Below are positions 36,279 through 58,107 of a stretch of 64,000 bases of DNA, in pieces; positions within the stretch are counted from its first letter, which is position 1, and the number at the start of each line of letters is the position of its first letter. Location of the stretch: the NCBI GenBank assembly GCA_036924085.1, contig JAVGWX010000011.1:22889739-22953738 (forward strand). The letters are read 5' to 3'. This stretch comes from Ariolimax columbianus (Eukaryota > Mollusca > Gastropoda > Stylommatophora > Arionidae). The position numbers and the translations under genes were made by a program. The notes below the pieces were generated by a model. The model did not search any database. It was not told the origin of the DNA and saw nothing but the letters and a program-made list of their open reading frames with translations.

Positions 36279-36284
36279 TAACCC

Positions 36285-36745: not shown

Positions 36746-36989
36746 AACCCTGTAGGAAGGTGTGATATGACAGTTCCATTGTTTATGAAAAGTATTATAA
36801 CACTAATAAAAAGAATGTTTGTTACCAGAGCTCGAACAAAGTTAAAACAAGTTACACTGTAACCAACACTAAGATGTGACTGAGGAGGGTTGGGCCTGGA
36901 GCTGGCTCCCTCATCCTATTAAAAACTATGTCACAAGAAAAATAAAAGAATATGTCTACACCACAATAAGAAGAGGAACAATTCATATA

Positions 36990-37950
36990 AATGGACAGCG
37001 TAGTTAGGAAAAACATAAGATGGCCACGCCTCAATGGCTGCGCTCTTGACTCGCTTTGGTGTTTGTGTCGAGTTTTCTGATGTTTGGTGGTTCCTGTTCG
37101 GATTATAATTAACAACTCCTTGACCAGATGGTATCAGGGATTTAATTCTGTGGAACTGATGTGCTTTCGATTGGTTATCGTGTTTATTATGCTGCATTTC
37201 GCTGCATTGCATGCCTGGCTTGAACTGTGGGAAACCAGTGCATGATGCGCGTTCAGCGTTCCGCTTGGCTGCATATCGGAGTTCGGTCCAGGTTATCACT
37301 ACTCAAGGATCCTCCTGCCTGCCCCTCCCTCCCTCTACAGGAGGTTACACTATACCTTTCCCAACTTCGTATTCTCAGCACAGCAACGGTCACGCTGACC
37401 AAAAGGTGGACACAATCTAGAGGATTCAGTGGCGGAACACAGAAAAAAAAAACAGTTTGACACAGACAGACACGGAAAGCCTGACACCAACATTAGTCTA
37501 ATACACTCCTCGCGGCCCTCATCCAAAGGCAGCAGAGTACTCAGCTCCACCTGGAATTTCGGTCAAAATGCTACGCATGAACACAGCCTCAGCAGACGGA
37601 CATGGTAGTGGTCAATCGATGCAACAGGCTTTTGACGCCTATGCGAACATTATTATTATAATTAGACGGAGCATGTAACCTAGTCGACAGTGAGTGAGCT
37701 GGCTTGCAAAGACTGGGATTACAGCATGCCAGGGTTCGAAATCATCTGTACATAGTTTGTGCCTGGTACGAATGCTCCTCCAGTCGATCCAGCTGTAAAT
37801 GTGTACCTGACTTATGAGTTGGGGAAGGTATAAACAGCAAGGAAGGGAACTGGCCACTCCACCTCACATAGGCTGCGGCTTAGTACATGAAGAGTTATCT
37901 TCATCCCTGACGATAATTGTTACCATGGGACTGACCTTTACCTTCACAGA
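36990..37950. other. Insertion splitting an old family A unit
   Basis: Sequences left (36880-37000) and right (37947-38217) of this block are collinear with the continuous 43910-44334. The roughly 950 bp between are therefore inserted. The block holds a SINE (37668-37948) plus about 650 bp of unrecognised DNA with short open frames on both strands and no assigned function. Confidence 0.55.
37668..37948 (+). mobile_element. tRNA-derived SINE, family 2
   Basis: Aligns with 18745-19025. B-box 'cagggttcgaaatc', body 'gtaaatgtgtacctgactta', 'cctcacataggctgcggctt'. Confidence 0.72.
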
Positions 37951-38217
37951 TACAAGCTGGTCATTAGGTCTTTTCTGTTTATCTCACTAACTGATATCAG
38001 AACCGTCAGAAAAGGTAGCTAAGGTGAGTTATCAACATTCTAGATACTTAGGTCACTGATTTCTTTTATGCTGTTTTGATTTGTTTTATCACTGAAAAGG
38101 TCCATTATTCGTCAAAATCTCTGAAGTAAAATTTCATTTAAACCCGTTATGTTTTTGTTTTGGCTACTAAAAAGATGTGAAACTCATGCCAATACTACTG
38201 ATGGGAGAAGACATTCA

Positions 38218-38347
38218 AAATGTCCATGTTGTGTGCGCTCACAGGCCAGATGACCAGGAGGGATTGTTAACATGGTTTTACTGTTGCAGTCAAAGTTAAC
38301 CAGTTCTCTCAATGTTTGAGAAAACTAGTTTTATTCAAGACTGCAGT
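38218..38347 (-). ncRNA. Candidate H/ACA snoRNA, family A outlying copy iii
   Basis: Diverged but structurally sound: GCAGUC/GACUGC stem, tip re-paired as CUCAA/UUGAG, H box ACAGUA, hairpin 2 closing stem CCAUGUU/AACAUGG, then ACAUUU. Both 28S guide elements are unchanged. It lies in a different MDN1 intron from the main array. Confidence 0.75.
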
Positions 38348-38664
38348 AACTAGAAAGTGAGAGTGAATGAGTGAATGTAGGTGGATAGGTGGGTGAGTGA
38401 GTGACTGAGCGATCGAGCGAGTACGTGTGCATTAATATAATATATAACTGATGCTCATTTCATTGTACAGTTTCGGTCTGTACTAAATAGTGGTTCTCAA
38501 TATTTGGCAGAACAGAGGCGTATAACTTCTGCAGAATAAGAATCTAAATAGTGAGTGAACATTTGACACAAGAAGTTGTGTTCGTTATATCTTATAATTT
38601 ACCAATCTGGATTTTAAAAAGTATGGAAGTTCTTCAGCACCTGAATTACTTTTCAGCACCTCAC
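38348..38664. other. Intronic sequence with low-complexity GTGA tract
   Basis: A 'gtgagtgagtgactgagcga' type tract at 38354-38420; nothing else recognised. Confidence 0.5.
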
Positions 38665-38900
38665 ATTTTTCTAGGCTGCTCACTTTGAGAGACTGTATAT
38701 ATTTTGTTTGTCGTATAAATATGATTTGTTCGTGTGTAGGGACATAAATGAATAAATAACTTGTTGGCGGTATTGTTTTTGTTGTGTGTGTATTAGTTTC
38801 TGTAATAAAAGAAGTTGGTGAAAATGAAAAACGGCAACAACATTTAGATTTATCAATTGTTCAGGGAAACGAGACCTTCGGAATTTGAAAATTGTCACAG
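38665..38900 (-). repeat. Dispersed repeat R4, 3' half
   Basis: Reverse complement matches 13740-13900 ('cagaaactaatacacacaca', 'caacaagttatttattcat', 'caaatcatattta'). Confidence 0.65.
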
Positions 38901-39469
38901 AACACTGATAGTGTTTCTTACAAGATCGTCACATCTGTTATTTTTCCTTACAAATGTACTTAATACTGCTAAATAAACAGATCTATCTCAGAAAAATATG
39001 TTGCAACAACTTACCCGTAACATCACCCGTAATAATGGAATAATCCATCAGTCGTCCAGAAAGAAGAGAACATATCGTTTCAAAATTCTCTATCTAACTA
39101 AACTGGCCATCTTGCTTGTTTACATCTACAATGATGGCATTGTCTATTTTTAGATTCTAAATGGCTGAGTGTTCAACAGGTGTAAATGCACAACAATGCT
39201 CTAGAATATTCTTCTTATCGCTCAGCGTATTTTCTTGACACCAGTGGCAGAGTGACCATGTAATTTTTTGACGCAATAACTGGCCCTGCGCATGGTGAAG
39301 GTTAAGCAACCAACAACAAATATGTTGTTCAAAGTGCTAGTCTTACATGAAAACTATTTCATTCTACTAACTACTGAATGGTTACCACAAGCCGTACATT
39401 CTGGTCAAAGATCAATGTCATTGTATATACCCTACCAGATAGACTTTGAATTATTGACTTAGTCTTAAT
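38901..39469. other. Intronic sequence without recognised features
   Basis: AT-rich; no repeat or exon identified. Confidence 0.4.
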
Positions 39470-39600
39470 CAAGCGTGGCCAAATGGTTTCGAGGTCTTCT
39501 TGCTGGCCGATAAGGAGGGCAGTGGTTCAAATCCCGGTATGGCATTTGTTGTTTTTCTGTTTGGTGTGAAATAAACAAACATAGCCAGCACACGATGTGA
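39470..39600 (+). mobile_element. tRNA-derived SINE, family 4
   Basis: tRNA-like head with A-box 'gtggccaaatggtttcgagg' and B-box 'gtggttcaaatccc', then a T-rich body. The acceptor stem is not complementary, so it is not scored as a tRNA gene. Confidence 0.5.
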
Positions 39601-39929
39601 CAACAAAAGTGGCCTGTAGTTCTCAGCCTAAAAAAAACCTTCGACTTCCCCAACAATGGAGAAAATTCGTATGAAGTTCATTTTTTTAAACAGTTCTTAA
39701 TTTATTCTTTTGCAGAGGTGGTTTCCCATGTGCAGTTTCCAGCTCTTCTACAAGTTGGAGATAGCCGGTTCATAGGGGTGGGTGTCTTCGTCGCATGGGT
39801 ACCCAAAAAGTGGCTGCTGTGCTCCAGCATCTGTCTCTCTTTCTGACTACAAGGAAAGCCCAGTGATGTTTGGAGTTGTTGACATGCTGTAGGACATTCT
39901 TCCTTGACATGTGACATGTCCCATAAGTC

Positions 39930-40080
39930 CTGCTGAAGTTGGATGTGTCCGACTGAAAGGTGCAAATATCGCAGTCAAGCTGTAAACTACATCACTACGC
40001 ATTCCGTTCTCTGAGCAACATTCTGCTACATAAAGCCCTTTCAGGGCCGGGTAGCAGGAGATTAAGAACGAACGAAGCCA
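39930..40080 (+). repeat. Dispersed repeat R3, 3' part
   Basis: Same 3' module as 60890-61042, ending 'gaacgaacgaagcc'. Confidence 0.65.
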
Positions 40081-40189
40081 AGCTAAGCCAAGCCATTTCC
40101 CAAAAGTCACTATTGTGTAGGTCCTTCTGACATTGAGAAGCCCTTAAGACGGCACTCAAGCAAGGGATGTGTTGCCCTTAACTGGTTTT

Positions 40190-40522
40190 CTCCGGAAGCT
40201 GAATAGTGCATGGGCTGTAGTAGTCAATGACCCAAAACTGACTGCTAGCATCAGGACCAACGACCCAGAGCTGACAAAACCCTTTTCCAACTCCACAAGA
40301 TGATCCTGGATAACAGGCTGCAACAGGCAGACTGGATAAGGAGAAGGGATCGAAGAGACAAGGCTAAACTGGTACTCAAAAATATGATGATGAAGTTGGA
40401 TGTGCTGGACCGGAAAGTGCAAATATTGCAGTAAAGCTGTAAACTATTACACATGACACAACACATCATGCTACTTGCAAAGCCTTTTTCAGGGCTTGGT
40501 AGCAGGAGTTTGATAATGACAG
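40190..40522 (+). repeat. Dispersed repeat R3, near full-length
   Basis: Aligns with 60685-61042 over both body ('actgctagcatcagg', 'gatcctggataacaggctgc') and tail ('gagaagaagaaaaag'). Confidence 0.7.
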
Positions 40523-40984
40523 AGAAGAAGAAAAAGTTAGTTTTCCCATTGATGTTTGGTACAGAAGTTATCTCAAAATGTCACAGTTCAACACTCAGTG
40601 CTGTTTAACACATGATGCATTCGTAATTTTATTTTACAATTTCTAAACAACTTCTGCCCAAAACCAACATCTGTTGCCTGACATGTGTTACAGGCAGTGA
40701 TTACCAGCAGGTTGACCCAATTTCTACTATGTGTATCCAATCAGAGCACTATTCAGTCAAACACTATTAGCTTATTGAAATGAAAAAAAGGCGAGGCTGC
40801 GGCGGCACTTTGGTTTAAAATAAAGTGGTAAAAAACATAAATAGATATTGTTCGATACCGCCATAAGACGAAAACACTAACAATATCTACGTTACGACCA
40901 ACATATTAAAGTCTTTTTTTTACACTGTAGATTATGGAATACACAATTTAGCTCCAAAGAAATACATAAAAAATATTTTATATA

Positions 40985-41145
40985 GCCAAAATATATTTAT
41001 CAAACAGATAATAACAGCAAATGAATGGCCACTTCACAGGCTAAAATTGGCTCCATCACCTATGTGTATGTGTGAGCAAGCATCACAGACAGTCGAACAT
41101 ATCCAGCAGAACTGTTATATGCTTAACCTTTAGCACTCCAATGTT
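40985..41145 (+). mobile_element. RNase H-type LINE C-terminal fragment
   Basis: Encodes LAPSPMCMCEQASQTVEHIQ followed by QNCYMLN, the zinc-knuckle region of these LINEs. Confidence 0.5.
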
Positions 41146-41149
41146 AAAA

Positions 41150-41690
41150 GAGAACCAACCAACTCGGCCTACAAAAAACGGTGTGCGGAGTCACTCCCAA
41201 CAGCCATTTTTTACTGCTCCGTATATACACGATATTTTGCCGGTTAAAGTATCGTATGTTCGATTACAAATGGCTTTTAAACAGTTTTAATTTTGTATAC
41301 ACCGTTTGGAGCAAGCTGACTTTTTGCGAAAGGGGAAGTAGGTTGTTGGGAAAGATCTTTATCGAGTAGATCTGTTTATTTTGTTTGTTTAAATGAAAGA
41401 ACTACATTTGAATTGGAAACTAACAGTTGTGTCGATATTGTAAACACGGTATCGATACGTTGTTGTGGTTTCAATGGTTTTCTATCGAAGTGACTAGGCG
41501 TAGTGGCCGAGTCCAAATTTTTTCCGAGATTTTCATACATTTTCAACTTCATCTTTTTCAATCTCAAAAACTAACAAACACACAACAAAAACAATAACAC
41601 CCACATGTTCGTTATGCTATTGTGTGTCTACACGCAAGAAAATCATATTTATTGACAAACAAACATAAAAGTTACAAATTTTGAAAGACG
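41150..41690 (+). repeat. Dispersed repeat R4, second full copy
   Basis: Collinear with 13380-13915. Confidence 0.7.
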
Positions 41691-42039
41691 ATACCATAGC
41701 GACAAATTAAGAAAATTAATTAGGTAAACCAATTGTGTACTGAGCACTGGTTCATGGAGATGAACCTTCACACATAGCCATTTGGAAGTTTTGAAGAACT
41801 TCACCATAGCAATCTTTACCTAGAGAACTGGTGTTCAAGTTAAGATGACTCCTTTTTTTTTAAATGTGACAAACGAGAAGGAGAAGATAAAAGTGAAAGA
41901 AATAGAAGAGAGGAGTTTTAGTTTAGGCAAAGAATCAACGTCATTTCACATGCTCTGTTCTTCTCCATCTTTGTTTAGAATCTCAGCACAATACACGAAT
42001 TCCAAAGCACCAGCGATATCCCGTAATAGATTGGGTTAC

Positions 42040-42262
42040 CGTAATTTTGAATTTTTCCCAGGCAGTGGCTGTTAAGCCTACTCTTTTTTATTTCCAACTG
42101 CCATGGCATTTTTAACGTGCGTAACACTGCACTTTACTTTAACACTGCACACGGGCATCCGATCTCTACTACCCAGAGATATTCCAGTCTCCACTGTGAT
42201 TTGAACCCGCGACCTCCAGCAGAGGCTGCCTTTTTACCTCAAGACCACTAAGTTCCCGAAAA
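42040..42262 (-). mobile_element. SINE family 1, minus copy
   Basis: B-box on the minus strand 'gcgggttcaaatc' and head 'agtggtcttgaggtaaaaag'. It abuts an MDN1 exon within 50 bp. Confidence 0.7.
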
Positions 42263-42310
42263 CAAAGACAACATCTGCTTCTCTAAATAAAGTATGTTAC
42301 TCCAACAAAC

Positions 42311-42502
42311 CTCTTCCTTCTCGTCCTGCTTGTCTCTCACTGCCTCCTGTTCGTTCTCCTGCTCCAGTCCTCTCCCCAAGCTGTCAGCAATCTCTGCTTG
42401 CTGGTTGGCATCTCCTGCATCCTCAACTGTGTCTACTTTGTCCTGTGAGGCAACAACATCCTCTCTGTCTCTGCCCAGTTCAGCTGTTGGTTTCTCTTCT
42501 TC
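42311..42502 (-). CDS. MDN1: MDN1 exon (acidic linker, LGRGLEQENEQ)
   Basis: 192 nt, 64 codons, phase 0 at both ends. Acceptor catccacag, donor GAG|GTTTGT. Glu/Asp/Gln-rich, with ADSLGRGLEQENEQEA. Identified by composition, phase agreement and position in the exon series. Confidence 0.85.
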
Positions 42503-42580
42503 CTGTGGATGAACATTTAACATTATTTCAAATTTATATTACACAAAAAAAGGACATAGATGAGGAAGACAGTTGATGTA

Positions 42581-43392
42581 GGGAGACTGGTAGGAGAGAG
42601 ATCCAGATTTAGGTACTGTCAATTTTACGTGAGCGCAAAATAATGAGACAAATATGAGGTACAAAAAGTAATTAGGGAGACTGGTAGAAGAGAGATCCAG
42701 ATTTAGATACTGTTCATTTTACATGAGCGCAAAATAATGAGACAAATATGAGGTACAAAAAGTAATTAGGGAGACTGGTAGAAGAGAGATCCAGATTTAG
42801 ATTCTGTTAATTTTACATGAGCGCAAAATAATGAGACAAATATGAGGTACAAAAAGTAATTAGGGAGACTGGTAGAAGAGAGATCCAGATTTAGATTCTG
42901 TTCATTTTACATGAGCGCAAAATAATGAGACAAATATGAGGTACAAAAAGTAATTAGGGAGACTGGTAGAAGAGAGATCCAGATTTAGATTCTGTTAATT
43001 TTACATGAGCGCAAAATAATGAGACAAATATGAGGTACAAAAAGTAATTAGGGAGACTGGTAGAAGAGAGATCCAGATTTAGATTCTGTTAATTTTACAT
43101 GAGCGCAAAATAATGAGACAAATATGAGGTACAAAAAGTAATTAGGGAGACTGGTAGAAGAGAGATCCAGATTTAGATTCTGTTAATTTTACATGAGCGC
43201 AAAATAATGAGACAAATATGAGGTACAAAAAGTAATTAGGGAGACTGGTAGAAGAGAGATCCAGATTTAGATTCTGTTAATTTTACATGAGCGCAAAATA
43301 ATGAGACAAGTATGAGGTACAAAAAGTAATTAGGGAGACTGGTAGAAGAGAGATCCAGATTTAGATACTATTAATTTTACATTACCAAAAAA
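42581..43392. repeat. 94-bp minisatellite, about 8.6 units
   Basis: Unit starts 'gggagactggtagaagagag' and ends 'gaggtacaaaaagtaatta'. Units differ by only a few bases. It begins about 80 bp upstream of an MDN1 acceptor. Confidence 0.96.
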
Positions 43393-44333
43393 TAATGAGA
43401 CTAATTATGTGTGTAATAATATTACTTCCAACTCTGGCCTATGCTTTGCATGGAGCTCAAAAAGAATACCTCACAAATAGATAAACGAATACAAATAATA
43501 AGATAAGTGTACACTATATGACATTTGTTAAAGATGGCCCTAACTGACACATCCTAAAGGTGATTACAGATGTCCCAAATTGACACGTCCTAAAGGTGAA
43601 TAAAAGTAACCCTAATTGACATGTCCTAAAGGTGATGAAAAGTGACCCTATGACATGTCCTAAAAGTTGACTAAAATTATCCTATCTGAAATGTCCTAAA
43701 GGTGACTAACATAACCTTGTCTATCCTAAATGCGACAAAAGATCACCCTATCTTAAATGTGACTAAAGATTACCCTTTCTGGAATGTCCTAAAAGGTGAC
43801 TATGTATGGCTATGATATTCTAAATGCTTAGATCCCCATTCTGATTTGAAGAAAAAAAACAGTTTTATACAAGACTGCACTAACTCTCTGTGTGTGTGAG
43901 TGATACAACTCATCCTATTAAAACTATAAGCCCCAAGAAAATGAAACGTATATTTCTACACCCCAATGTAGAAAAGGAACAATCCAGTCAGTCAGTCAGT
44001 CATATAAATTGACAGCACATTTAGATCAAGCTGGACATTAAGTCTTATCTGTTTACCTAACTAACTGATATCAGAACTCTTAGAATAAGGCCAGTATACT
44101 ATACCTAAAATATCGTAAAAGGTAGCTAATGTGGGTTGGGAATGCTCTAGATACTTAAGTTACTGCATTATTTTGTGCTGTTTCTTTCTTTATCTAATCC
44201 CTGATAAAGATCTTTACTATTTGAAATTTCTGCAAATGCCCACAAGAAAAATTGTATTTGAACCCATTTTGTTTTACAGATACTAAATAGGTGTGAAACC
44301 CATGTCAATATCAGTGATGGGATGAGACATTCA

Positions 44334-44463
44334 AAATGTCCATGTTGTGTGCGCTCACAGACCAGATGACCAGGAGGGATTGTTAACATGGTTTTACTGT
44401 GGCAATCAAAGTTAACAAGATTCCCAGTATTCGAGAGCACCAGTTTTATACAAGACTGCACTA
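44334..44463 (-). ncRNA. Candidate H/ACA snoRNA, family A copy 1
   Basis: H box ACAGUA; hairpin 2 tip re-paired as GGUC/GGUC. One pair is lost in the hairpin 1 tip (GGGAA for GGGAG). Confidence 0.75.
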
Positions 44464-44826
44464 ATCATGTGAGTGTGATATAACAATCACAAGTTGATGT
44501 GTGTAATAATATTACTTCCAACTCTGGCCTATGCTTTGTATGACCTAAAAGGTGACCAAAATAATCATATCTGAAATGTCCTAAAGGGTGACTAAAATGA
44601 CCCTATCTGAAATGATCTATAAGGTGACTAAAATTACCATATATGACATGTTCTAAAAGGTGACTAAAATGACCCTATCTGAAATGACCTAAAATGTGAC
44701 TAAAGATTACCCTTTCTGGCATGTCCTAAAAGGTGACTATGTGTGGTTATGATATTCTAAATGCTTAGATCACCATTCTGATTTGTGTCGTTATCATTTG
44801 AAAAAAACCAGTAATGTTAGTTAATT

Positions 44827-44956
44827 AAATGTCCATGTTGTGTGCGCTCTCAGGCCAGATGACCAGGAGGGATTGTTAACATGGTTTTACTGTAGCAATC
44901 AAAGTTAACCAGATCTCCCATTGTTGAAGAACATCCGTTTTATACTAGACTGCATT
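44827..44956 (-). ncRNA. Candidate H/ACA snoRNA, family A copy 2
   Basis: Subtype with a different hairpin 1 tip (UGUU/AACA, loop CUUC); the other elements match the reference copy. Confidence 0.7.
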
Positions 44957-45400
44957 AACTGTGTGTGTGTGAGAGAGATACAACTGTCACTCATCCTATA
45001 AAAACTAAAAGCCACAAGAAAAGGAAAGAATATATCTACATCCCAAGATAGAAGAGGAACAATTCAGTCACTCAATCAGTCAGTCAGTCAGTCAGTCATA
45101 GAGATGTACAGCACATCTAGATACCAGCTGGACATTATGTATTATCTCCCTAACTGATAACAGAGCCCCAAGAATGAGCCCAGTATACCATACCCAACAT
45201 ATCATTTAAGGGAGCTAAGGTGGGTTGAGAATGCTCTGGATACTAAAGGTCACTGCATTATCTAATCCCTGATAAAGATCTTTACTGCTTGAAACATTTG
45301 CTAATGCTCTCATGTAAAATTCTATTTGAACAGATTTTGTTTTTCATTACTAAGAAAATGTGAAACTCATGTTAATATCAGTGATATGGTGAGACATTCA

Positions 45401-45530
45401 AAATGTCCATGTTGTGTGCGCTCATAGATCAGATGACCAGGAGGGATTGTTAACATGGTTTTACTGTAGCAATCAAAGTTAACAATTTCTCCCAGTGTTC
45501 GAGAGCACCAGTTTTATACAAGACTGCACT
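45401..45530 (-). ncRNA. Candidate H/ACA snoRNA, family A copy 3
   Basis: Hairpin 2 tip GGUC/GAUC: two substitutions relative to GGCC, all four pairs kept. Inner AAC/GUU pairing of hairpin 1 is altered by 'aacaatttct'. Confidence 0.75.
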
Positions 45531-46024
45531 AATTATGTGAGTGTGATATAGATGATCATTTCCCTGTACATTTATCACATCAACAGTAACAATCACAAGT
45601 TGATGTGTAATAATATTACTTCCAGCTCTGGCCTATGCTTTGTATGACCTAAAAGGTGACTAAAATGACACTATCTTAAATGTCCTAAAAAGTGACAAAT
45701 GACCCTATCGTAAATGTCCTAAAAGGTGACTAAAATGACCCTATCTTAAATGTAATAAATGGTGACTAAAATGACCATATCTGAAATGATATGTAAGGTG
45801 ACTAAATGACCCTATCTCGCATGTCATAAGTGTGACTAAAGATTACAATATCTGGCATGTCCAAAATGTGACTAAATATCACCCTATCTGGCATGTCCTA
45901 AATGTGACTAAATATCACCCTATCTGGCATGTCCTAAAAGGTCACTATGTATGGCTATGATATTCTAAATGCTTAGATCTCCATTCTGATTTGTGTCCTA
46001 ATTTTTTGAAAATGTTAGTTGATA

Positions 46025-46154
46025 AAATGTCCATGTTGTGTGCGCTCTCAGGCCAGATGACCAGGAGGGATTGTTAACATGGTTTTACTGTAGCAATCAA
46101 AGTTAACAAGTTCTCCCAGTGTTTGAGAGCACCAGTTCTTTACAAGACTGCACT
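46025..46154 (-). ncRNA. Candidate H/ACA snoRNA, family A copy 4
   Basis: As the reference, but the hairpin 1 pocket reads with 'ttctttacaag' in place of 'ttttatacaag'. Confidence 0.75.
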
Positions 46155-46656
46155 AATCATGTGAGTGTGATATAGATTATCTTTTCCCTGTACATTTATC
46201 ATATCAACAATAACAATCACAAGCTGATGTGTGTAATAATATTACTTCCAACTTTCAACTATGCTTTGTAATGGGCTCAACAAGAATACCCCACAAACAG
46301 ATAAACGAATTCAAATAATATAATAAGTGTACACTATATGGCATGTCCTAAAAGGTGACTAAAGATGGCCCTATATGACATGTTCTAAGTGACTAAATAT
46401 AGTCCTATCTGACATGTCCTAAACGATGATACTATCTGACACATCCTGAAACGTGGCTAAAGATGGCCGTATTTGACATGTTTCTATAAGTGACTAAAGA
46501 TGGCCCTATCTGACCTGTACTAAAAGGTGACTAAAATTACCCGTCTATCATGTCCTAAAAGGTGACTACAAATGGCTATGATATTCTAAATGCTTATATC
46601 ATCATTTTGATTTGTGGCGTTATCATTTGAAAAAAAACCAGTCATATTAGTCAACT

Positions 46657-46786
46657 AAATGTCCATGTTGTGTGCGCTCACAGATCAGATGACCAGGAGG
46701 GATTGTTAACATGGTTTTACTATAGCAATCAAAGTTAACAAGTTCTCCCAGTGTTGGAGAGCACCAGTTTTATAAAAGACTGCACT
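46657..46786 (-). ncRNA. Candidate H/ACA snoRNA, family A copy 5
   Basis: H box AUAGUA, still ANANNA. Hairpin 2 tip GGUC/GAUC. The tip of hairpin 1 has 'tgttggagag' and the pocket 'tataaaagac'. Confidence 0.72.
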
Positions 46787-47223
46787 AATCATGTGAGTGT
46801 GAAATAAATGATCCTCATTTCCCTGTACATTTATCACATCAACAGTAACAATCACAATTTGATGTGTAATAATATTACTTCCAACTCTGGCCTATGCTTT
46901 GTATGACCTAAAAGGTGACTGAAATGACCCTATCTCAAATGTCCTAAAAGGTGACAAATGACCCTATCTTAAATGTCCTAAAAAGTGACTAAAATGACCA
47001 TATCTGAAATGTCCTAAAAGGTGACCAAAATAATCATATCTGAAATGTCCTAAAGGGTGACTAAAATGACCCTATCTGAAATGACCTAAAATGTGACTAA
47101 AGATTACCCTTTCTGGCATGTCCTAAAAGGTGACTATGTGTGGTTATGATATTCTAAATGCTTAGATCACCATTCTGATTTGTGTCGTTATCATTTGAAA
47201 AAAACCAGTAATGTTAGTTAATT

Positions 47224-47353
47224 AAATGTCCATGTTGTGTGCGCTCTCAGGCCAGATGACCAGGAGGGATTGTTAACATGGTTTTACTGTAGCAATCAAA
47301 GTTAACAAGTTCTCCCAGTGTTCGAGAGCACCAGTTTTATACAAGACTGCACT
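47224..47353 (-). ncRNA. Candidate H/ACA snoRNA, family A copy 6
   Basis: All elements as in the reference copy. Confidence 0.78.
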
Positions 47354-47846
47354 AATTATGTGAGTGTGATATAGATGATCATTTCCCTGTACATTTATCA
47401 CATCAACAGTAACAATCACAAGTTGATGTGTAATAATATTACTTCCAACTCTGGCCTATGCTTTGTATGACCTAAAAGGTGACTAAAATGACACTATCTC
47501 AAATGTCCTAAAAAGTGACAAATGACCCTATCTTAAATGTCCTAAAAGGTGACTAAAATGACCATATCTTAAATGTCCTAAAAGGTGACTAAATGACCCT
47601 ATCTGAAATGATATGTAAGGTGACTAAATGACCCTATCTCGCATGTCCTAAATGTGACTAAATATTACAATATCTAGCATGTCCAAAATGTGACTAACTA
47701 TCCCCCTATCTGGCATGTCCTAAATGTGACTAATGATGACCCTATCTGGCATGTCCTAAAAGGTCACTATGTATGGCTATGATATTCTAAATGCTTAGAT
47801 CTCCATTCTGATTTGTGTCCTAATTTTTTGAAAATGTTAGTTGATT

Positions 47847-47976
47847 AAATGTCCATGTTGTGTGCGCTCTCAGGCCAGATGACCAGGAGGGATTGTTAAC
47901 ATGGTTTTACTATAGCAATCAAAGTTAACAAGTTCTCCCAGTATTCGAGAGCACCAGATTTATACAAGACTGCACT
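47847..47976 (-). ncRNA. Candidate H/ACA snoRNA, family A copy 7
   Basis: H box AUAGUA; otherwise as reference, with 'agatttatac' in the hairpin 1 pocket flank. Confidence 0.75.
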
Positions 47977-48486
47977 AATCATGTGAGTGTGAAATAAATG
48001 ATCCTCATTTCCCTGTACATTTATCACATCAACAGTAACAATCTCAAGCTGATGTGTGTAATAATATTACTTCCAACTCTGGCCTATGCTTTGTATGACC
48101 TAAAAGGTGACTAAAATGACCCTATCTCAAATGTCATAAAAGGTGACAAATGACCATATCTTAAATGTCCCAAAAAGTGACTAAAATGATCATATCTGAA
48201 ATGTCCTAAAAGGTGACCAAAATAATCATATCTGAAATGTCCTAAAGGGTGACTAAAATGACCCTATCTGAAATGATATATAAGGTGACTAAAATTACCA
48301 TATATGACATGTTCTAAAAGGTGACTAAAATGACCCTATCTGAAATGACCTAAAATGTGACTAAAGATTACCCTTTCTGGCATGTCCTAAAAGGTGACTA
48401 TGTATGGTTTGATATTCTAAATGCTTAGATCCCCATTCTGATTTGTGTCGTTGTCATTTGAAAAAAACCAGTAATGTTAGTCAATT

Positions 48487-48616
48487 AAATGTCCATGTTG
48501 TGTGCGCTCTCAGGCCAGATGACCAGGAGGGATTGTTAACATGGTTTTACTGTAGCAATCAAAGTTAACCAGATCTCCCATTGTTGAAGAACATCCGTTT
48601 TATACTAGACTGCATT
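48487..48616 (-). ncRNA. Candidate H/ACA snoRNA, family A copy 8
   Basis: Same subtype as copy 2, opening the second higher-order block. Confidence 0.7.
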
Positions 48617-49060
48617 AACTGTGTGTGTGTGAGAGAGATACAACTGTCACTCATCCTATAAAAACTAAAAGCCACAAGAAAAGGAAAGAATATATCTACA
48701 TCCCAAGGTAGAAGAGGAACAATTCAGTCACTCAATCAGTCAGTCAGTCAGTCAGTCATAGAGATGTACAGCACATCTAGATACCAGCTGGACATTATGT
48801 ATTATCTCCCTAACTGATAACAGAGCCCCAAGAATGAGCCCAGTATACCATACCCAACATATCATTTAAGGGAGCTAAGGTGGGTTGAGAATGCTCTGGA
48901 TACTAAAGGTCACTGCATTATCTAATCCCTGATAAAGATCTTTACTGCTTGAAACATTTGCTAATGCTCTCATGTAAAATTCTATTTGAACAGATTTTGT
49001 TTTTCATTACTAAGAAAATGTGAAACTCATGTTAATATCAGTGATATGGTGAGACATTCA

Positions 49061-49190
49061 AAATGTCCATGTTGTGTGCGCTCATAGATCAGATGACCAG
49101 GAGGGATTGTTAACATGGTTTTACTGTAGCAATCAAAGTTAACAAGTTCTCCCAGTGTTCGAGAGCACCAGTTTTATACAAGACTGCACT
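49061..49190 (-). ncRNA. Candidate H/ACA snoRNA, family A copy 9
   Basis: Counterpart of copy 3; hairpin 2 tip GGUC/GAUC, hairpin 1 complete. Confidence 0.78.
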
Positions 49191-49684
49191 AATTATGTGA
49201 GTGTGATATAGATGATCATTTCCCTGTACATTTATCACATCAACAGTAACAATCACAAGTTGATGTGTAATAATATTACTTCCAACTCTGGCCTATGCTT
49301 TGTATGACCTAAAAGGTGACTAAAATGACACTATCTTAAATGTCCTAAAAAGTGACAAATGACCCTATCGTAAATGTCCTAAAAGGTGACTAAAATGACC
49401 CTATCTTAAATGTAATAAATGGTGACTAAAATGACCATATCTGAAATGATATGTAAGGTGACTAAATGACCCTATCTCGCATGTCATAAGTGTGACTAAA
49501 GATTACAATATCTGGCATGTCCAAAATGTGACTAAATATCACCCTATCTGGCATGTCCTAAATGTGACTAAATATCACCCTATCTGGCATGTCCTAAAAG
49601 GTCACTATGTATGGCTATGATATTCTAAATGCTTAGATCTCCATTCTGATTTGTGTCCTAATTTTTTGAAAATGTTAGTTGATA

Positions 49685-49814
49685 AAATGTCCATGTTGTG
49701 TGCGCTCTCAGGCCAGATGACCAGGAGGGATTGTTAACATGGTTTTACTGTAGCAATCAAAGTTAACAAGTTCTCCCAGTGTTTGAGAGCACCAGTTCTC
49801 TACAAGACTGCACT
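49685..49814 (-). ncRNA. Candidate H/ACA snoRNA, family A copy 10
   Basis: Counterpart of copy 4, 3660 bp away. Confidence 0.75.
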
Positions 49815-50316
49815 AATCATGTGAGTGTGATATAGATTATCTTTTCCCTGTACATTTATCATATCAACAATAACAATCACAAGCTGATGTGTGTAATAAT
49901 ATTACTTCCAACTTTCAACTATGCTTTGTATGGAGCTCAACAAGAATACCCCACAAACAGATAAACGAATTCAAATAATATAATAAGTGTACACTATATG
50001 GCATGTCCTAAAAGGTGACTAAAGATGGCCCTATATGACATGTTCTAAGTGACTAAATATAGTCCTATCTGACATGTCCTAAACGATGATACTATCTGAC
50101 ACATCCTGAAACGTGGCTAAAGATGGCCGTATTTGACATGTTTCTATAAGTGACTAAAGATGGCCCTATCTGACCTGTACTAAAAGGTGACTAAAATTAC
50201 CCGTCTATCATGTCCTAAAAGGTGACTACAAATGGCTATGATATTCTAAATGCTTATATCATCATTTTGATTTGTGGCGTTATCATTTGAAAAAAAACCA
50301 GTCATATTAGTCAACT

Positions 50317-50446
50317 AAATGTCCATGTTGTGTGCGCTCACAGATCAGATGACCAGGAGGGATTGTTAACATGGTTTTACTATAGCAATCAAAGTTAACA
50401 AGTTCTCCCAGTATTCGAGAGCACCAGATTTATAAAAGACTGCACT
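50317..50446 (-). ncRNA. Candidate H/ACA snoRNA, family A copy 11
   Basis: Counterpart of copy 5; H box AUAGUA. Confidence 0.73.
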
Positions 50447-50883
50447 AATCATGTGAGTGTGAAATAAATGATCCTCATTTCCCTGTACATTTATCACATC
50501 AACAGTAACAATCACAATTTGATGTGTAATAATATTACTTCCAACTCTGGCCTATGCTTTGTATGACCTAAAAGGTGACTGAAATGACCCTATCTCAAAT
50601 GTCCTAAAAGGTGACAAATGACCCTATCTTAAATGTCCTAAAAAGTGACTAAAATGACCATATCTGAAATGTCCTAAAAGGTGACCAAAATAATCATATC
50701 TGAAATGTCCTAAAGGGTGACTAAAATGACCCTATCTGAAATGGCCTAAAATGTGACTAAAGATTACCCTTTCTGGCATGTCCTAAAAGGTGACTATGTG
50801 TGGTTATGATGTTCTAAATGCTTAGATCACCATTCTGATTTGTGTCGTTATCATTTGAAAAAAACCAGTAATGTTAGTCAATT

Positions 50884-51013
50884 AAATGTACATGTTGTGT
50901 GCGCTCTCAGGCCAGATGATCAGGAGGGATTGTTAACATGGTTTTACTGTAGCAATCAAAGTTAACAAGTTCTCCCAGTGTTCGAGAGCACCAGTTTTAT
51001 ACAAGACTGCACT
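50884..51013 (-). ncRNA. Candidate H/ACA snoRNA, family A copy 12
   Basis: The end reads AACAUGUACAUUU: one closing pair is lost but ACA is kept. The tip of hairpin 2 has one mismatch ('gatgatcagg'). Confidence 0.68.
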
Positions 51014-51507
51014 AATTATGTGAGTGTGATATAGATGATCATTTCCCTGTACATTTATCACATCAACAGTAACAATCACAAGTTGATGTGTAATAATATT
51101 ACTTCCAACTCTGGCCTATGCCTTGTATGACCTAAAAGGTGACTAAAATGACACTATCTTAAATGTCCTAAAAAGTGACAAATGACCCTATCGTAAATGT
51201 CCTAAAAGGTGACTAAAATGACCCTATCTTAAATGTCCTAAATGGTGACTAAAATGACCATATCTGAAATGATATGTAAGGTGACTAAATGACCCCATCT
51301 CGCATGTCATAAATGTGACTAAAGATTACAATATCTGGCATGTCCAAAATGTGACTAAATATCACCCTATCTGGCATGTCCTAAATGTGACTAAATATCA
51401 CCCTATCTGGCATGTCCTAAAAGGTCACTATGTATGGCTATGATATTCTAAATGCTTAGATCTCCATTCTGATTTGTGTCCTCATTTTTTGAAAATGTTA
51501 GTTGATT

Positions 51508-51637
51508 AAATGTCCATGTTGTGTGCGCTCTCAGGCCAGATGACCAGGAGGGATTGTTAACATGGTTTTACTGTAGCAATCAAAGTTAACAAGTTCTCCC
51601 AGTGTTTGAGAGCACCAGTTCTATACAAGACTGCACT
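51508..51637 (-). ncRNA. Candidate H/ACA snoRNA, family A copy 13
   Basis: As reference; pocket flank 'ttctatacaag'. Confidence 0.77.
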
Positions 51638-52139
51638 AATCATGTGAGTGTGATATAGATTATCTTTTCCCTGTACATTTATCATATCAACAATAACAAT
51701 CACAAGCTGATGTGTGTAATAATATTACTTCCAACTTTCAACTATGCTTTGTATGGAGCTCAACAAGAATACCCCACAAACAGATAAACAAATTCAAATA
51801 ATATAATAAGTGTACACTATATGGCATGTCCTAAAAGGTGACTAAAGATGGCCCTATATGACATGTTCTAAGTGACTAAATATAGTCCTATCTGACATGT
51901 CCTAAACGATGATACTATCTGACACATCCTGAAATGTGGCTAAAGATGGCCGTATTTGACATGTTTCTAAAAGTGACTAAAGATGGCCCTATCTGACCTG
52001 TACTAAAAGGTGACTAAAATTACCCGTCTATCATGTCCTAAAAGGTGACTACAAATGGCTATGATATTCTAAATGCTTATATCATCATTTTGATTTGTGG
52101 CGTTTTCATTTGAAAAAAAACCAGTCATATTAGTCAACT

Positions 52140-52269
52140 AAATGTCCATGTTGTGTGCGCTCACAGATCAGATGACCAGGAGGGATTGTTAACATGGTTT
52201 TACTATAGCAATCAAAGTTAACAAGTTCTCCCAGTATTCGAGAGCACCAGATTTATACAAGACTGCACT
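52140..52269 (-). ncRNA. Candidate H/ACA snoRNA, family A copy 14
   Basis: H box AUAGUA; hairpin 2 tip GGUC/GAUC. Confidence 0.75.
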
Positions 52270-52759
52270 AATCATGTGAGTGTGATATAAATGGTCCTCA
52301 TTTCCCTGTACATTTATCACATCAACAGTAACAATCACAAGTTGATGTGTAATAATATTACTTCCAACTCTGGCCTATGCTTTGAATGACCTAAAAGGTG
52401 ACTGAAATGACCCTATCTCAAATGTCCTAAAAGGTGACAAATGACCCTATCTTAAATGTTCTAAAAGGTGACTAAAATTACGCTATATTAATTGTCCTAA
52501 AAGGTGACTAAAATGACCATATCTGAAATATGTAAGGTGACTAAATGACCATATCTCGCATGTCCTAAACGTGACTAAAGATTACAATATCTGGCATGTC
52601 CAAACTGTGATAAATATCACCCTATCTGGCATGTCCTAAATGTGACTAAAGATGACCCTATCTGGCATGTCCTAAAAGGTCACTATGTATGGCTATGATA
52701 TTCTAAATGCTTAGATCTCCATTCTGATTTGTGTCATTTAAACAAAATGTTAGTTGATT

Positions 52760-52889
52760 AAATGTCCATGTTGTGTGCGCTCTCAGGCCAGATGACCAGG
52801 AGGGATTGTTAACATGGTTTTACTGTAGCAATCAAAGTTAACAAGTTCTCCCAGTGTTCGAGAGCACCAGTTTTATACAAGACTGCACT
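52760..52889 (-). ncRNA. Candidate H/ACA snoRNA, family A copy 15 (reference copy)
   Basis: Minus-strand folding, with plus positions. Hairpin 1: lower stem GCAGUC/GAUUGC (52881-52886 with 52828-52833), AAC/GUU above the pocket, tip CUCUCG/UGGGAG (52859-52864 with 52848-52853). H box ACAGUA (52821-52826). Hairpin 2: closing stem CCAUGUU/AACAUGG (52811-52817 with 52766-52772), inner CUC/GAG and GGUC/GGCC. ACA (52763-52765) then three U. Pocket strands AACAAUCC (52803-52810) and CGC (52777-52779) are complementary to 28S GGAUUGUU and GCG, leaving UU unpaired. The first U sits 14 nt from ACA. H/ACA RNPs (dyskerin, NOP10, NHP2, GAR1) isomerise such uridines. Processing would be from the spliced MDN1 intron. 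Confidence 0.8.
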
Positions 52890-53398
52890 AATCATGTGAG
52901 TGTGATGTAAATGATCCTCATTTCCCTGTACATTTATCACATCAACAGTAACAATCACAATTTGATGTGTAATAATATTACTTCCAACTCTGGCCTATGC
53001 TTTGTATGACCTAAAAGGTGACTAAAATGACCCTATCTCAAATGTCATAAAAGGTGACAAATGACCATATCTTAAATGTCCCAAAAAGTGACTAAAATGA
53101 TCATATCTGAAATGTCCTAAAAGGTGACCAAAATAATCATATCTGAAATGTCCTAAAGGGTGACTAAAATGACCCTATCTGAAATGATATATAAGGTGAC
53201 TAAAATTACCATATATGACACGTTCTAAAAGGTGACTAAAATGACCCTATCTGAAATGACCTAAAATGTGACTAAAGATTACCCTTTCTGGCATGTCCTA
53301 AAAGGTGACTATGTGTGGTTATGATATTCTAAATGCTTAGATCACCATTCTGATTTGTGTCGTTGTCATTTGAAAAAAACCAGTAATGTTAGTCAATT

Positions 53399-53528
53399 AA
53401 ATGTACATGTTGTGTGCGCTCTCAGGCCAGATGACCAGGAGGGATTGTTAACATGGTTTTACTGTAGCAATCAAAGTTAACCAGATCTCCCATTGTTGAA
53501 GAACATCCGTTTTATACTAGACTGCATT
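53399..53528 (-). ncRNA. Candidate H/ACA snoRNA, family A copy 16
   Basis: Subtype of copies 2 and 8, with the GUACAUUU end also seen in copy 12. Confidence 0.68.
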
Positions 53529-53972
53529 AACTGTGTGTGTGTGAGAGAGATACAACTGTCACTCATCCTATAAAAACTAAAAGCCACAAGAAAAGGAAAG
53601 AATATATCTACATCCCAAGATAGAAGAGGAACAATTCAGTCACTCAATCAGTCAGTCAGTCAGTCAGTCATAGAGATGTACAGCACATCTAGATACCAGC
53701 TGGACATTATGTATTATCTCCCTAACTGATAACAGAACCCCAAGAATGAGCCCAGTATACCATACCCAACATATCATATAAGGGAGCTAAGGTGGGTTGA
53801 GAATGCTCTGGATACTAAAGGTCGCTGCATTATCTAATCCCTGATAAAGATCTTTACTGCTTGAAACATTTGCTAATGCTCTCATGTAAAATTCTATTTG
53901 AACAGATTTTGTTTTTCATTACTAAGAAAATGTGAAACTCATGTTAATATCAGTGATATGGTGAGACATTCA

Positions 53973-54102
53973 AAATGTCCATGTTGTGTGCGCTCATAGA
54001 TCAGATGACCAGGAGGGATTGTTAACATGGTTTTACTGTAGCAATCAAAGTTAACAAGTTCTCCCAGTGTTCGAGAGCACCAGTTTTATACAAGACTGCA
54101 CT
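53973..54102 (-). ncRNA. Candidate H/ACA snoRNA, family A copy 17
   Basis: Counterpart of copies 3 and 9. Confidence 0.77.
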
Positions 54103-54596
54103 AATTATGTGAGTGTGATATAGATGATCATTTCCCTGTACATTTATCACATCAACAGTAACAATCACAAGTTGATGTGTAATAATATTACTTCCAGCTC
54201 TGGCCTATGCTTTGTATGACCTAAAAGGTGACTAAAATGACACTATCTTAAATGTCCTAAAAAGTGACAAATGACCCTATCGTAAATGTCCTAAAAGGTG
54301 ACTAAAATGACCCTATCTTAAATGTCCTAAATGGTGACTAAAATGACCATATCTGAAATGATATGTAAGGTGACTAAATGACCCTATCTCGCATGTCATA
54401 AATGTGACTAAAGATTACAATATCTGGCATGTCCAAAATGTGACTAAATATCACCCTATCTGGCATGTCCTAAATGTGACTAAATATCACCCTATCTGGC
54501 ATGTCCTAAAAGGTCACTATGTGTTGCTATGATATTCTAAATGCTTAGATCTCCATTCTGATTTGTGTCCTCATTTTTTGAAAATGTTAGTTGATT

Positions 54597-54726
54597 AAAT
54601 GTCCATGTTGTGTGCGCTCTCAGGCCAGATGACCAGGAGGGATTGTTAACATGGTTTTACTGTAGCAATCAAAGTTAACAAGTTCTCCCAGTGTTTGAGA
54701 GCACCAGTTTTATACAAGACTGCACT
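54597..54726 (-). ncRNA. Candidate H/ACA snoRNA, family A copy 18
   Basis: All elements as in the reference copy; its unit is duplicated next to it (copy 19, exactly 624 bp away). Confidence 0.78.
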
Positions 54727-55220
54727 AATCATGTGAGTGTGATATAGATTATCTTTTCCCTGTACATTTATCACATCAACAGTAACAATCACAAGTTGAT
54801 GTGTAATAATATTACTTCCAGCTCTGGCCTATGCTTTGTATGACCTAAAAGGTGACTAAAATGACACTATCTTAAATGTCCTAAAAAGTGACAAATGACC
54901 CTATCGTAAATGTCCTAAAAGGTGACTAAAATGACCCTATCTTAAATGTCCTAAATGGTGACTAAAATGACCATATCTGAAATGATATGTAAGGTGACTA
55001 AATGACCCTATCTCGCATGTCATAAATGTGACTAAAGATTACAATATCTGGCATGTCCAAAATGTGACTAAATATCACCCTATCTGGCATGTCCTAAATG
55101 TGACTAAATATCACCCTATCTGGCATGTCCTAAAAGGTCACTATGTATGGCTATGATATTCTAAATGCTTAGATCTCCATTCTGATTTGTGTCCTCATTT
55201 TTTGAAAATGTTAGTTGATT

Positions 55221-55350
55221 AAATGTCCATGTTGTGTGCGCTCTCAGGCCAGATGACCAGGAGGGATTGTTAACATGGTTTTACTGTAGCAATCAAAGTT
55301 AACAAGTTCTCCCAGTGTTTGAGAGCACCAGTTTTATACAAGACTGCACT
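55221..55350 (-). ncRNA. Candidate H/ACA snoRNA, family A copy 19
   Basis: Core the same as copy 18, consistent with recent unequal exchange. Confidence 0.78.
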
Positions 55351-55851
55351 AATCATGTGAGTGTGATATAGATTATCTTTTCCCTGTACATTTATCATAT
55401 CAACAATAACAATCACAAGCTGATGTGTGTAATAATATTACTTCCAACTTTCAACTATGCTTTGTATGGAGCTCAACAAGAATACCCCACAAACAGATAA
55501 ACAAATTCAAATAATAAGATAAGTGTACACTATATGGCATGTCCTAAAAGGTGACTAAAGATGGCCCTATATGACATGTTCTAAGTGACTAAAGATAGTC
55601 CTATCTGACATGTCCTAAACGATGATACTTTCTGACACATCCTGAAACGTGGCTAAAGATGGCCGTATTTGACATGTTTCTATAAGTGATTAAAGATGGT
55701 CCTATCTGACTTGTACTAAAAGGTGACTAAAATTACCCGTCTATCATGTCCTAAAAGGTGACTACAAATGGCTATGATATTCTAAATGCTTATATCATCA
55801 TTTTGATTTGTGGCGTTATCATTTGAAAAAAACCAGTCATATTAGTCAACT

Positions 55852-55981
55852 AAATGTCCATGTTGTGTGCGCTCACAGATCAGATGACCAGGAGGGATTG
55901 TTAACATGGTTTTACTATAGCAATCAAAGTTAACAAGATCTCCCAGTATTCGAGAGCACCAGTTTTATACAAGACTGCACT
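55852..55981 (-). ncRNA. Candidate H/ACA snoRNA, family A copy 20
   Basis: H box AUAGUA; hairpin 2 tip GGUC/GAUC. Confidence 0.75.
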
Positions 55982-56436
55982 AATCATGTGAGTGTGATAT
56001 AGATGATCATTTCCCTGTACATTTATCACATCAACAGTAACAATCACAAGTTGATGTGTAATAATATTACTTCCAACTCTGGCCTATGCTTTGAATGACC
56101 TAAAAGGTGACTAAAATGACCCTATCTCAAATGTCCTAAAAGGTGACAAATGACCCTATTTTAAATGTCCTAAAAAGTGACTAAAATGACCCTATCTTAA
56201 TTGTCCTAAAAGGTGACTAAAATGACCATATCTGAAATGATATGTAAGGTGACTAAATGACCATATCTCGCATGTCCTAAACGTGACTAAAGATTACAAT
56301 ATCTGGCATGTCCTAAATGTGACTAAAGATGACCCTATCTGGCATGTCCTAAAAGGTCACTATGTATGGCTATGATATTCTAAATGCTTAGATCTCCATT
56401 CTGATTTGTGTCATTTAAACAAAATGTTAGTTGATT

Positions 56437-56566
56437 AAATGTCCATGTTGTGTGCGCTCTCAGGCCAGATGACCAGGAGGGATTGTTAACATGGTTTTAC
56501 TGTAGCAATCAAAGTTAACAAGTTCTCCCAGTTTTCGAGAGCACCAGTTTTATACAAGACTGCACT
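56437..56566 (-). ncRNA. Candidate H/ACA snoRNA, family A copy 21
   Basis: As reference, with one change in the hairpin 1 loop ('gttttcgaga'). Confidence 0.77.
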
Positions 56567-57283
56567 AATCATGTGAGTGTGATATAAATGATCCTCATTT
56601 CCCTGTACATTTGTCACATCAACAGTAACAATCACAAGCTGATGTGTAATAATATTACTTCCAACTCTGGCCTATGCTTTGTATGACCTGAAAGGTGACT
56701 AAAATGACCCTATCTCAAATGTCCTAAAAGGTGACAAATGACCCTATCTTAAATGTCCTAAAAATTGACAAAAATGACCGTATCTGAAATGTCCTAAAAG
56801 GTGACCAAAATGATCATATCTGAAATGTCCAAATAGGTGACTAAATGGCCCTATCTGAAATGATCTATATATAAGGTGACTAAAATTACAATATATGACA
56901 TGTTCTAAAAGGTGACTAAAATGACCCATCTGAAATGACCTAAAATGTGACTTAATATTACCATTTCTGGCATGTCCTAAAAGTTGACTAAAGATGGCTA
57001 TATCTGACATGTTCTAAGTGACTTAAGATAGTCCTATCTGACATGTCCTAAACGATGATGCTATCTGACACATCCTGAAACGTGGCTAAAGATGGCCGTA
57101 TTTGACATGTTCCTTTAAGTGACTAAAGATGGCCCTATCTGACCTGTACTAAAAGGTGACTAAAATTACCCGTCTATCATGTACTAAAAGGTGACTATAA
57201 ATGGCTATGATATTCTAAATGCTTATATCATCATTTTGATTTGTGGCGTTATCATTTGAAAAAACCAGTCATATTAGTCAACT

Positions 57284-57413
57284 AAATGTCCATGTTGTCT
57301 GCGCTCTCAGGCCAGATGACCAGGAGGGATTGTTAACATGGTTTTACTGTAGCAATCAAAGTTAACAAGTTCTCCCAGTATTCGAGAGCACCTGTTTTAT
57401 ACAAGACTGCACT
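57284..57413 (-). ncRNA. Candidate H/ACA snoRNA, family A copy 22
   Basis: Last full copy. Pocket strand altered ('gtctgcgctc' for 'gtgtgcgctc'), though the CGC contact is kept. Confidence 0.72.
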
Positions 57414-57776
57414 AATCATGTGAGTGTGATATAAATGGTCCTCATTTCCCTGTACATTTATCACATCAACAGTAACAACCACAATTTGATGTGTAATAAT
57501 ATTACTTCCAACTCTGGCCTATGCTTTGAATGACCTAAAAGGTGACTAAAATGACCCTATCTCAAATGTCCTAAAAGGTGACAAATGACCCTATCTTAAA
57601 TGTCCTAAAATGTGACTAAAATGACCCTATCTTAAATGTCCTAAAAGGTGACTAAAATGACCAAATCTGAAATTATCTATAAGGTGACTAAATGACCTAT
57701 CTCGCATGTCCTAAACGTGACTAAAGATTACAATAACTGGCATGTCCAAAATGTGACTAAATATCACCCTATCTGG

Positions 57777-57801
57777 CACCAGTTTTATACAAGACTGCAC
57801 T
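57777..57801 (-). repeat. Terminal fragment of family A core
   Basis: Only the 5' end of the RNA ('agttttatacaagactgcac') is present before the array stops. Confidence 0.7.
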
Positions 57802-57978
57802 AATCATGTGAGTGTGATATAGATTATCTTTTCCCTGTACATTTATCACATCAACAGTAACAATCACAAGCTGATGTGTGTAATAATATTACTTCCAACT
57901 CTGACTTTTTTTTATGTGTGCAATAAACGTCAAAAAACACACCTCATTCCAAAAAAGGCAAAAAAGAATAACACTTAC

Positions 57979-58107
57979 CTGGCCTGATGTCCCATCAGCA
58001 CCATCTCCTTCCTTATCCTCCTCTTCCTCCTCCTCCTTCTCAGCCATCAGATTTTGTATACTGTCCTCACCAGGTTTATCATCCTCATCTTCAAGGTCTT
58101 GTGTTTC
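57979..58107 (-). CDS. MDN1: MDN1 exon (acidic linker)
   Basis: 129 nt, 43 codons, phase 0 at both ends. Acceptor ctcattcag, donor CAG|GTAAGT (consensus). Very acidic: ETQDLEDEDDKPGEDS, then EKEEEEEEDKEGDGADGTSG. Confidence 0.88.

Follow-up and report, generated by a model that had tools for sequence, protein, structure and literature searches.

A putative tandem array of 22 box H/ACA guide RNA copies in one midasin intron of Ariolimax columbianus, with a predicted target in the A-loop of the large-subunit rRNA

Box H/ACA guides in host genes for ribosome biogenesis are ordinary, and intronic H/ACA clusters were reportedly described in Drosophila by Huang et al. in 2004 and 2005 (both cited in PMC5932544). 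The SNORD115/116, SNORD113/114 and rat Bsr arrays carry one small nucleolar RNA (snoRNA) gene per intron of a non-coding host. According to a review, animal snoRNAs mostly lie one per intron, and large tandem repeats have been described for some box C/D families (PMC11028025). In the gene for the fly pseudouridine synthase, a cluster with one gene in each intron was described in 2007 (PMC1821038). Here, we analysed a 64,000-nucleotide (nt) stretch of the Ariolimax columbianus genome (contig JAVGWX010000011.1, positions 22,889,739 to 22,953,738; hereafter the window), in which 22 near-identical copies of a core of about 130 nt lie in tandem within one intron of the gene for midasin (MDN1/Rea1). 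From the sequence evidence, we consider it quite likely that they represent a real H/ACA guide family in midasin, with hairpin 2 directed at the A-loop of the large-subunit (LSU) ribosomal RNA (rRNA), which was tandemly amplified to 22 copies in a single intron.

Like animal box H/ACA snoRNAs, the core has two hairpins, an ANANNA H box and an ACA three nt from the end, lies in an intron of a ribosome-biogenesis gene and offers a pocket complementary to rRNA; unlike them, it occurs in 22 near-identical copies per intron and matches no Rfam family at the gathering score. Drosophila clusters likewise place several H/ACA genes in a single intron of a protein-coding gene, but each such intron reportedly holds a small number of guides, often unlike one another, whereas here one guide is present in 22 copies, separated by spacers of 0.4-0.7 kb and arranged in a higher-order repeat pattern. 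The first-pass annotation of this DNA held that animal H/ACA guides mostly sit one per intron, a statement with which the review agrees but to which the H/ACA clusters published for Drosophila are exceptions. The SNORD115/116, SNORD113/114 and Bsr arrays also arose by large local tandem amplification and were homogenised by recombination, as the review states (PMC11028025); they are of the box C/D class, whereas the present array is of the H/ACA class and lies entirely within a single intron of a protein-coding host. Fold and boxes here are those of H/ACA rather than C/D RNA, although no search was aimed at C/D features. The unusual feature is the copy number of one H/ACA guide in a single intron, and searches of the open-licence literature that did not name midasin returned no report of an H/ACA array in this gene.

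A blastn search of the window with one core recovered 22 copies of nearly full length at 44334-57413; all of them lie on the minus strand and are 92.2-100% identical to the reference copy (Table 1). The host gene was identified through the exon peptide RGDYRTGKRLNMRKVIPYIASQFRKDKIWLRRSKPSKRQYQILIAVDDSASM (59 aa), which matches Midasin in the PDB with an E value of 2.9e-25 and corresponds to the C-terminal MIDAS domain; five further peptides from this gene, which are acidic or show less conservation, gave no midasin match against the PDB, and no Pfam family was found for three of these. The boundaries of the array intron read ...GGCCAG/GTAAGT at 57979/57978 and ...CCACAG/GAAGAAG at 42503/42502, and the reading frames of the exons on either side are compatible.

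Unconstrained folding with RNAalifold of 26 aligned copies (the 22 of the array, the outlying copies c1 and c3 from the next intron, and two on contig C13; c2 was omitted because it lacks the 3' end) gave a hairpin, a single-stranded H box, a second hairpin and an ACA+3 tail. The H box (ANANNA) and ACAUUU are present in all 26 copies, and the 3' half is conserved among the aligned copies of the window. Within the array the H box reads ACAGUA in 17/22 and AUAGUA in 5/22 copies, and ACAUUU terminates 22/22 array copies and 24/25 copies in the window, the exception being c2 with its missing 3' end. In the reference copy c9, hairpin 1 has the basal stem GCAGUC/GAUUGC and is followed by the ACAGUA H box, hairpin 2 with the basal stem CCAUGUU/AACAUGG, and ACA+UUU. 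Compared with 1000 column shuffles of each half, hairpin 1 showed a z score of -3.6 (2/1000 reach its consensus fold) and hairpin 2 one of -2.0 (38/1000), while an end-closing stem of at least 5 pairs was found in 11/1000 and 9/1000 shuffles, respectively. The reverse-complement strand yielded no two-hairpin form on folding, and the plus strand was rejected as the RNA strand.

Most of what the first-pass annotation had described could thus be reproduced, namely 22 copies of a core of about 130 nt on the host strand, a midasin intron of about 15 kb (15,476 nt by MIDAS exon and splice sites), the hairpin-ANANNA-hairpin-ACA+3 design, the two H-box variants and the hairpin-1 stem GCAGUC/GACUGC in the outlying copies at 36149, 36646 and 38218 (c1, c2 and c3). 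It somewhat understated the family, which extends to the next intron and to contig C13. Its description of the hairpin-2 tip holds for the variants, with GGUC facing GGCC, GAUC (7/22) or GGUC (1/22), but not for the claim that all pairs are kept, since the copy at 50884 (c15) has a GAUC/GGCC tip with one pair broken.

Hairpin 2 has 14 nt from the upper stem to the ACA and a two-armed pocket around an unpaired UN. When C88-G110 closes the upper stem, the sequence expected to fit its arms AACAAUCC and CGC is GCG-U-N-GGAUUGUU. In the LSU A-loop (helix 92), GCGU-U-GGAUUGUU can pair with AACAAUC(C) and (G)CGC of the pocket, with 8+3 pairs at the first U, or 7 pairs on the left and 4 on the right, including one G.U, at the second. 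The A-loop reads CCAAGCGTTGGATTGTTCACCC in an LSU fragment of the same genome and uGUuGGAUUGUUCACCC in the Rfam eukaryotic LSU consensus; the 5' side of the target is therefore less conserved. In a scan of about 3.8 kb (this LSU fragment, 555 nt; human 18S, 1869 nt; the 3' part of human 28S, 1382 nt), 1/400 shuffled pockets did equally well in the C88-G110 register (first U) and 0/400 in the register shifted by one (second U). Both LSU guide arms and the ACA+3 end are intact in 22/22 array copies, c1 and c3. Taken together, A-loop pseudouridylation of the LSU rRNA is a fairly probable predicted function of hairpin 2. We take the second A-loop U to be position 4463 of human 28S, a placement made by hand and in agreement with the spacing of the listed modifications. 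The passage of a mass-spectrometry table in PMC6182160 gives Psi4463 (17%), Gm4464, Um4468, Gm4469 and Psi4470 for human 28S, with no entry for the first U (human 4462). Many dispersed 28S rRNA fragments were also seen on more than 15 large contigs (L031-L034 plus 40 scored places out of 316 candidates), L031 being visibly degraded.

Copy c3 provides an informative comparison because its flank is homologous to that of the array but decayed. The homologous downstream flanks of c3 and c4 are identical at 206/266 positions with 53 further gap columns, and the hairpin-1 apical part has decayed to a similar extent (20/29 identical, one gap). The remaining core is identical at 95/100 positions with 0 gaps (Fisher 2.8e-5 versus the flank), a value weakened by the fact that the hairpin-1 apical part was set aside only after the alignment had been inspected. 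Three further partners of c3, which are not independent, gave Fisher values of 1.1e-6 to 2.0e-6. Gene conversion restricted to the core could in part mimic this conservation signal. Within the array, variable columns are concentrated in the two apical parts (17/56, compared with 9/74 elsewhere; Fisher 0.014), with 0/12 in the hairpin-1 basal stem, 1/15 in the hairpin-2 pocket and 0/3 in the ACA.

Several results weigh against the H/ACA reading. The first-pass annotation had rested it on changes between copies that preserve pairing, and had named a lack of covariation support in R-scape as one half of what would speak against it. With RNAalifold and a covariation score in place of R-scape, no such support was obtained: two-sided changes occurred in 0/25 predicted pairs among the 26 copies and, in a fuller structure, in 1/34 pairs, at a position paired in only 2/22 distinct rows, while the covariation score of the latter structure was 0.060 versus 0.064 in shuffles. 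In the 34-pair structure 91.4% of cells do pair, compared with 31.6-42.4% when the partners are slid. The pair changes listed in the annotation are one-sided G-C/G-U/A-U exchanges, which are compatible with pairing but do not prove it. Covariation was therefore rejected as proof of the structure, unsupported as it is in both structures tested, although the high similarity of the copies (95% mean column identity) leaves this test with little power. The H/ACA assignment was retained since covariation is supporting evidence and not part of the definition; the annotation's H/ACA reading and its host gene stand, while the pairing-preserving changes offered for the H/ACA reading do not suffice to establish it. 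Conservation relative to c3 and a specific rRNA target appear to be the better evidence.

On the structural side, a single whole core gave a z score of only -1.97 with 8/200 shuffles folding equally well, its minimum-free-energy fold differs from the H/ACA form, and the two halves need separate folding, upon which each gives the expected hairpin. For the target, the A-loop match was first spotted by eye in a human sequence, the scan came later and used human 18S and 28S sequences entered by hand, and five pocket registers were scanned (two for hairpin 2, three for hairpin 1). Furthermore, the right guide arm pairs 3-4 bases only, and the A-loop site is modified to only 17% in human, according to the table passage (PMC6182160). 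Hairpin 1 found no target in human 18S, the 3' part of 28S or the LSU fragment of the same genome; it may be an orphan or aimed at an RNA outside that set. Regarding conservation, the whole c3/c4 core compared with the nearest 100 nt of flank gave a Fisher value of 0.059, which is not significant (0.002-0.003 for the other c3 partners), the hairpin-1 pocket is no less variable than the apical parts (4/14 columns), and spacers of the same class (means 0.966-0.994) are as alike as the adjoining cores (0.940-0.995). Likeness among the array copies therefore proves little, and the identity of the spacers indicates that the array is recent or homogenised.

Rfam likewise gave no family assignment. 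No match reached the gathering score in the window or in the 118,862 bases of the midasin gene examined upstream of it, and in 13.8 kb there was none with an E value of 5 or below. The best match of the core, SNORA5 (RF00392), covers the whole model with the boxes in register, but its 16.4 bits (E 0.18) lie below the gathering score of 30. Orthology to SNORA5 was rejected, and the core is probably not a SNORA5 guide, because the pocket sequences in the printed alignment disagree as judged by eye. A Rfam family match is not a defining feature of the box H/ACA class. Judged by its sequence, the core is very probably a box H/ACA guide RNA.

The copies outside the array bear on its origin. The two cores on contig C13 lie in repeat-rich DNA with an array spacer between them. 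In one the right LSU guide arm is altered, in the other a base of the hairpin-2 basal stem, and each also differs at a base of the hairpin-1 stem. Because the array spacer travels with them, they look like a moved segment, probably a part of the array that is decaying. A mobile or retroposed element, such as a short interspersed nuclear element (SINE)-like repeat merely resembling an H/ACA RNA, would fit both these copies on another contig and a core common to c1, c2, c3 and the array, whose flanks are mostly not shared. We nevertheless regard such a dispersed element as very improbable, since c3 and the array share a decayed downstream flank over about 250 nt, which argues for origin by local duplication, and since the C13 copies bring the array spacer along. 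A search of the genome (2.29 Gb, 401 contigs) with one array spacer matched, as a lower bound, at least C11 and one C13 place. Copies c1 and c2 both have an extra 11-nt upstream stretch (CCTACAGGGTT), their remaining flanks being unrelated. Within the array, many copies lie head to tail, spacer classes recur in a higher-order pattern, and the cores are joined to differing combinations of upstream and downstream flank, from which we infer that unequal exchange between cores of the same orientation multiplied core and spacer to 22 copies. The spacers at 43528-57775 also contain runs of a 36-bp minisatellite (ATGTCCTAAAAGGTGACTAAAATGACCCTATCTGAA), which likewise adjoin the C13 copies.

The core would be transcribed as part of midasin, each transcript carrying 22 templates, and the RNA would assemble with dyskerin and modify the A-loop uridine. 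Two snoRNAs in one intron can yield a snoRNA-ended long non-coding RNA (sno-lncRNA), and trimming halts at the ends of the ribonucleoproteins (RNPs), as the review states (PMC11028025); 22 RNPs would therefore need cuts between the units, presumably by an endonuclease, or only the outer copies would mature. The first-pass annotation had likewise offered an unusual release route, or processing of only some copies, as its own inference. RNA production, dyskerin binding, uridine modification and the release of single RNAs are steps that we infer. A stem-loop (CACATCAAC...GTTGATGTG at best) lies 77-82 nt upstream of 17/22 cores and could be a cut site between units, with 11/19 instances reaching a folding energy of -10 kcal/mol or below and the others folding more weakly; it is only a lead, because its recurrence follows from the repetition of the spacers. 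We consider it unlikely that the array is released instead as one long H/ACA-ended RNA, as the precedent of sno-lncRNAs allows (PMC11028025); a possible inter-unit cut at this stem-loop speaks against it, although only some instances fold well. A satellite-like intronic repeat that expanded around a single genuine H/ACA gene or a small number of them, with most copies as passengers of recent duplication and only the outer ones or c3 giving stable RNA, is a tenable if somewhat doubtful alternative. The close identity of same-class spacers, their higher-order pattern and the 36-bp minisatellites agree with it, and if a linearised intron is trimmed inwards from its two ends, by the mechanism given in the same review, only the outermost snoRNPs would be spared (PMC11028025). 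The lower number of variable sites outside the apical parts (Fisher 0.014) speaks against it, as do the intact LSU guide arms of all 22 array copies, though young copies would be largely intact anyway. That most array copies yield mature RNA is likewise a tentative and somewhat doubtful prediction from sequence.

Table 1. Coordinates of array copies, outlying copies and midasin features (window positions unless marked L015).
Feature	Coordinates	Strand	Remarks
Tandem array	44334..57413	minus	22 H/ACA-type cores (~130 nt), spacers 364-717 nt
Core c25	57284..57413	minus	first in transcription order
Core c24	56437..56566	minus
Core c23	55852..55981	minus	H box AUAGUA
Core c22	55221..55350	minus
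Core c21	54597..54726	minus
Core c20	53973..54102	minus
Core c19	53399..53528	minus	outermost pair of hairpin-2 stem broken
Core c18	52760..52889	minus
Core c17	52140..52269	minus	AUAGUA
Core c16	51508..51637	minus
Core c15	50884..51013	minus	two broken pairs, one at the tip and one outermost
Core c14	50317..50446	minus	AUAGUA
Core c13	49685..49814	minus
Core c12	49061..49190	minus
Core c11	48487..48616	minus	hairpin-1 tip divergent
Core c10	47847..47976	minus	AUAGUA
Core c9	47224..47353	minus	reference copy
Core c8	46657..46786	minus	AUAGUA
Core c7	46025..46154	minus
Core c6	45401..45530	minus
Core c5	44827..44956	minus	hairpin-1 tip divergent
Core c4	44334..44462	minus	last complete copy of the array
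Core c3	38218..38347 (blastn match 38218-38345)	minus	complete outlying copy in next midasin intron, old duplicate
Core c2	36646..36745	minus	3' end missing
Core c1	36149..36279	minus	~120 nt before next 3' splice site; hairpin-2 basal stem damaged
Two cores on contig C13	L015:4396-4525, L015:5032-5161	minus	array spacer between, repeat-rich DNA
5' fragment of core, 26 nt	57776..57801	minus	near intron 5' end; blastn
5' fragment of core, 22 nt	43860..43881	minus	downstream of array; blastn
Recurring stem-loop, example	47399..47430	minus	upstream of cores; possible cleavage element
Midasin exon	57979..58107	minus	upstream of array intron, acidic region
Midasin intron with array	42503..57978	minus	15,476 nt, GT...AG; splice sites read directly
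Midasin exon	42311..42502	minus	downstream of array intron
Next midasin intron	36028..42310	minus	6,283 nt, holds c1-c3; splice sites read directly
Midasin MIDAS-domain exon segment	15490..15666	minus	identifies host gene; downstream on array strand

Besides the array, the window contains other regular minisatellites at 6104-7453, 8914-10006, 14795-15297, 20145-21067 and 42579-43405, with units of 32, 59, 40, 78 and 94 bp, respectively, and 95-98% matches. Remnants of long interspersed nuclear element (LINE)-type retrotransposons with endonuclease and reverse-transcriptase-like frames lie on the minus strand at 399-3423, 22391-23329 and 63340-63999; the frame at 2473-3423 matches Exo_endo_phos (E 3.1e-10), and the remaining ones were judged by eye.

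With 22 H/ACA copies arrayed in a single intron of a protein-coding gene, many RNPs would have to be released from within that intron, and this release is directly testable because the copies carry private variants. More speculatively, and in our estimate rather improbably, the intron might act as a guide-RNA amplifier, in which many H/ACA RNPs per midasin transcript, cut at the recurring stem-loops, would serve one A-loop pseudouridine and so link the dosage of a modification in the peptidyl-transferase centre to a factor that matures the same subunit. The array itself would also provide a naturally occurring example in which the dosage of a single A-loop pseudouridine guide is extreme, for a site listed as only 17% modified in human.

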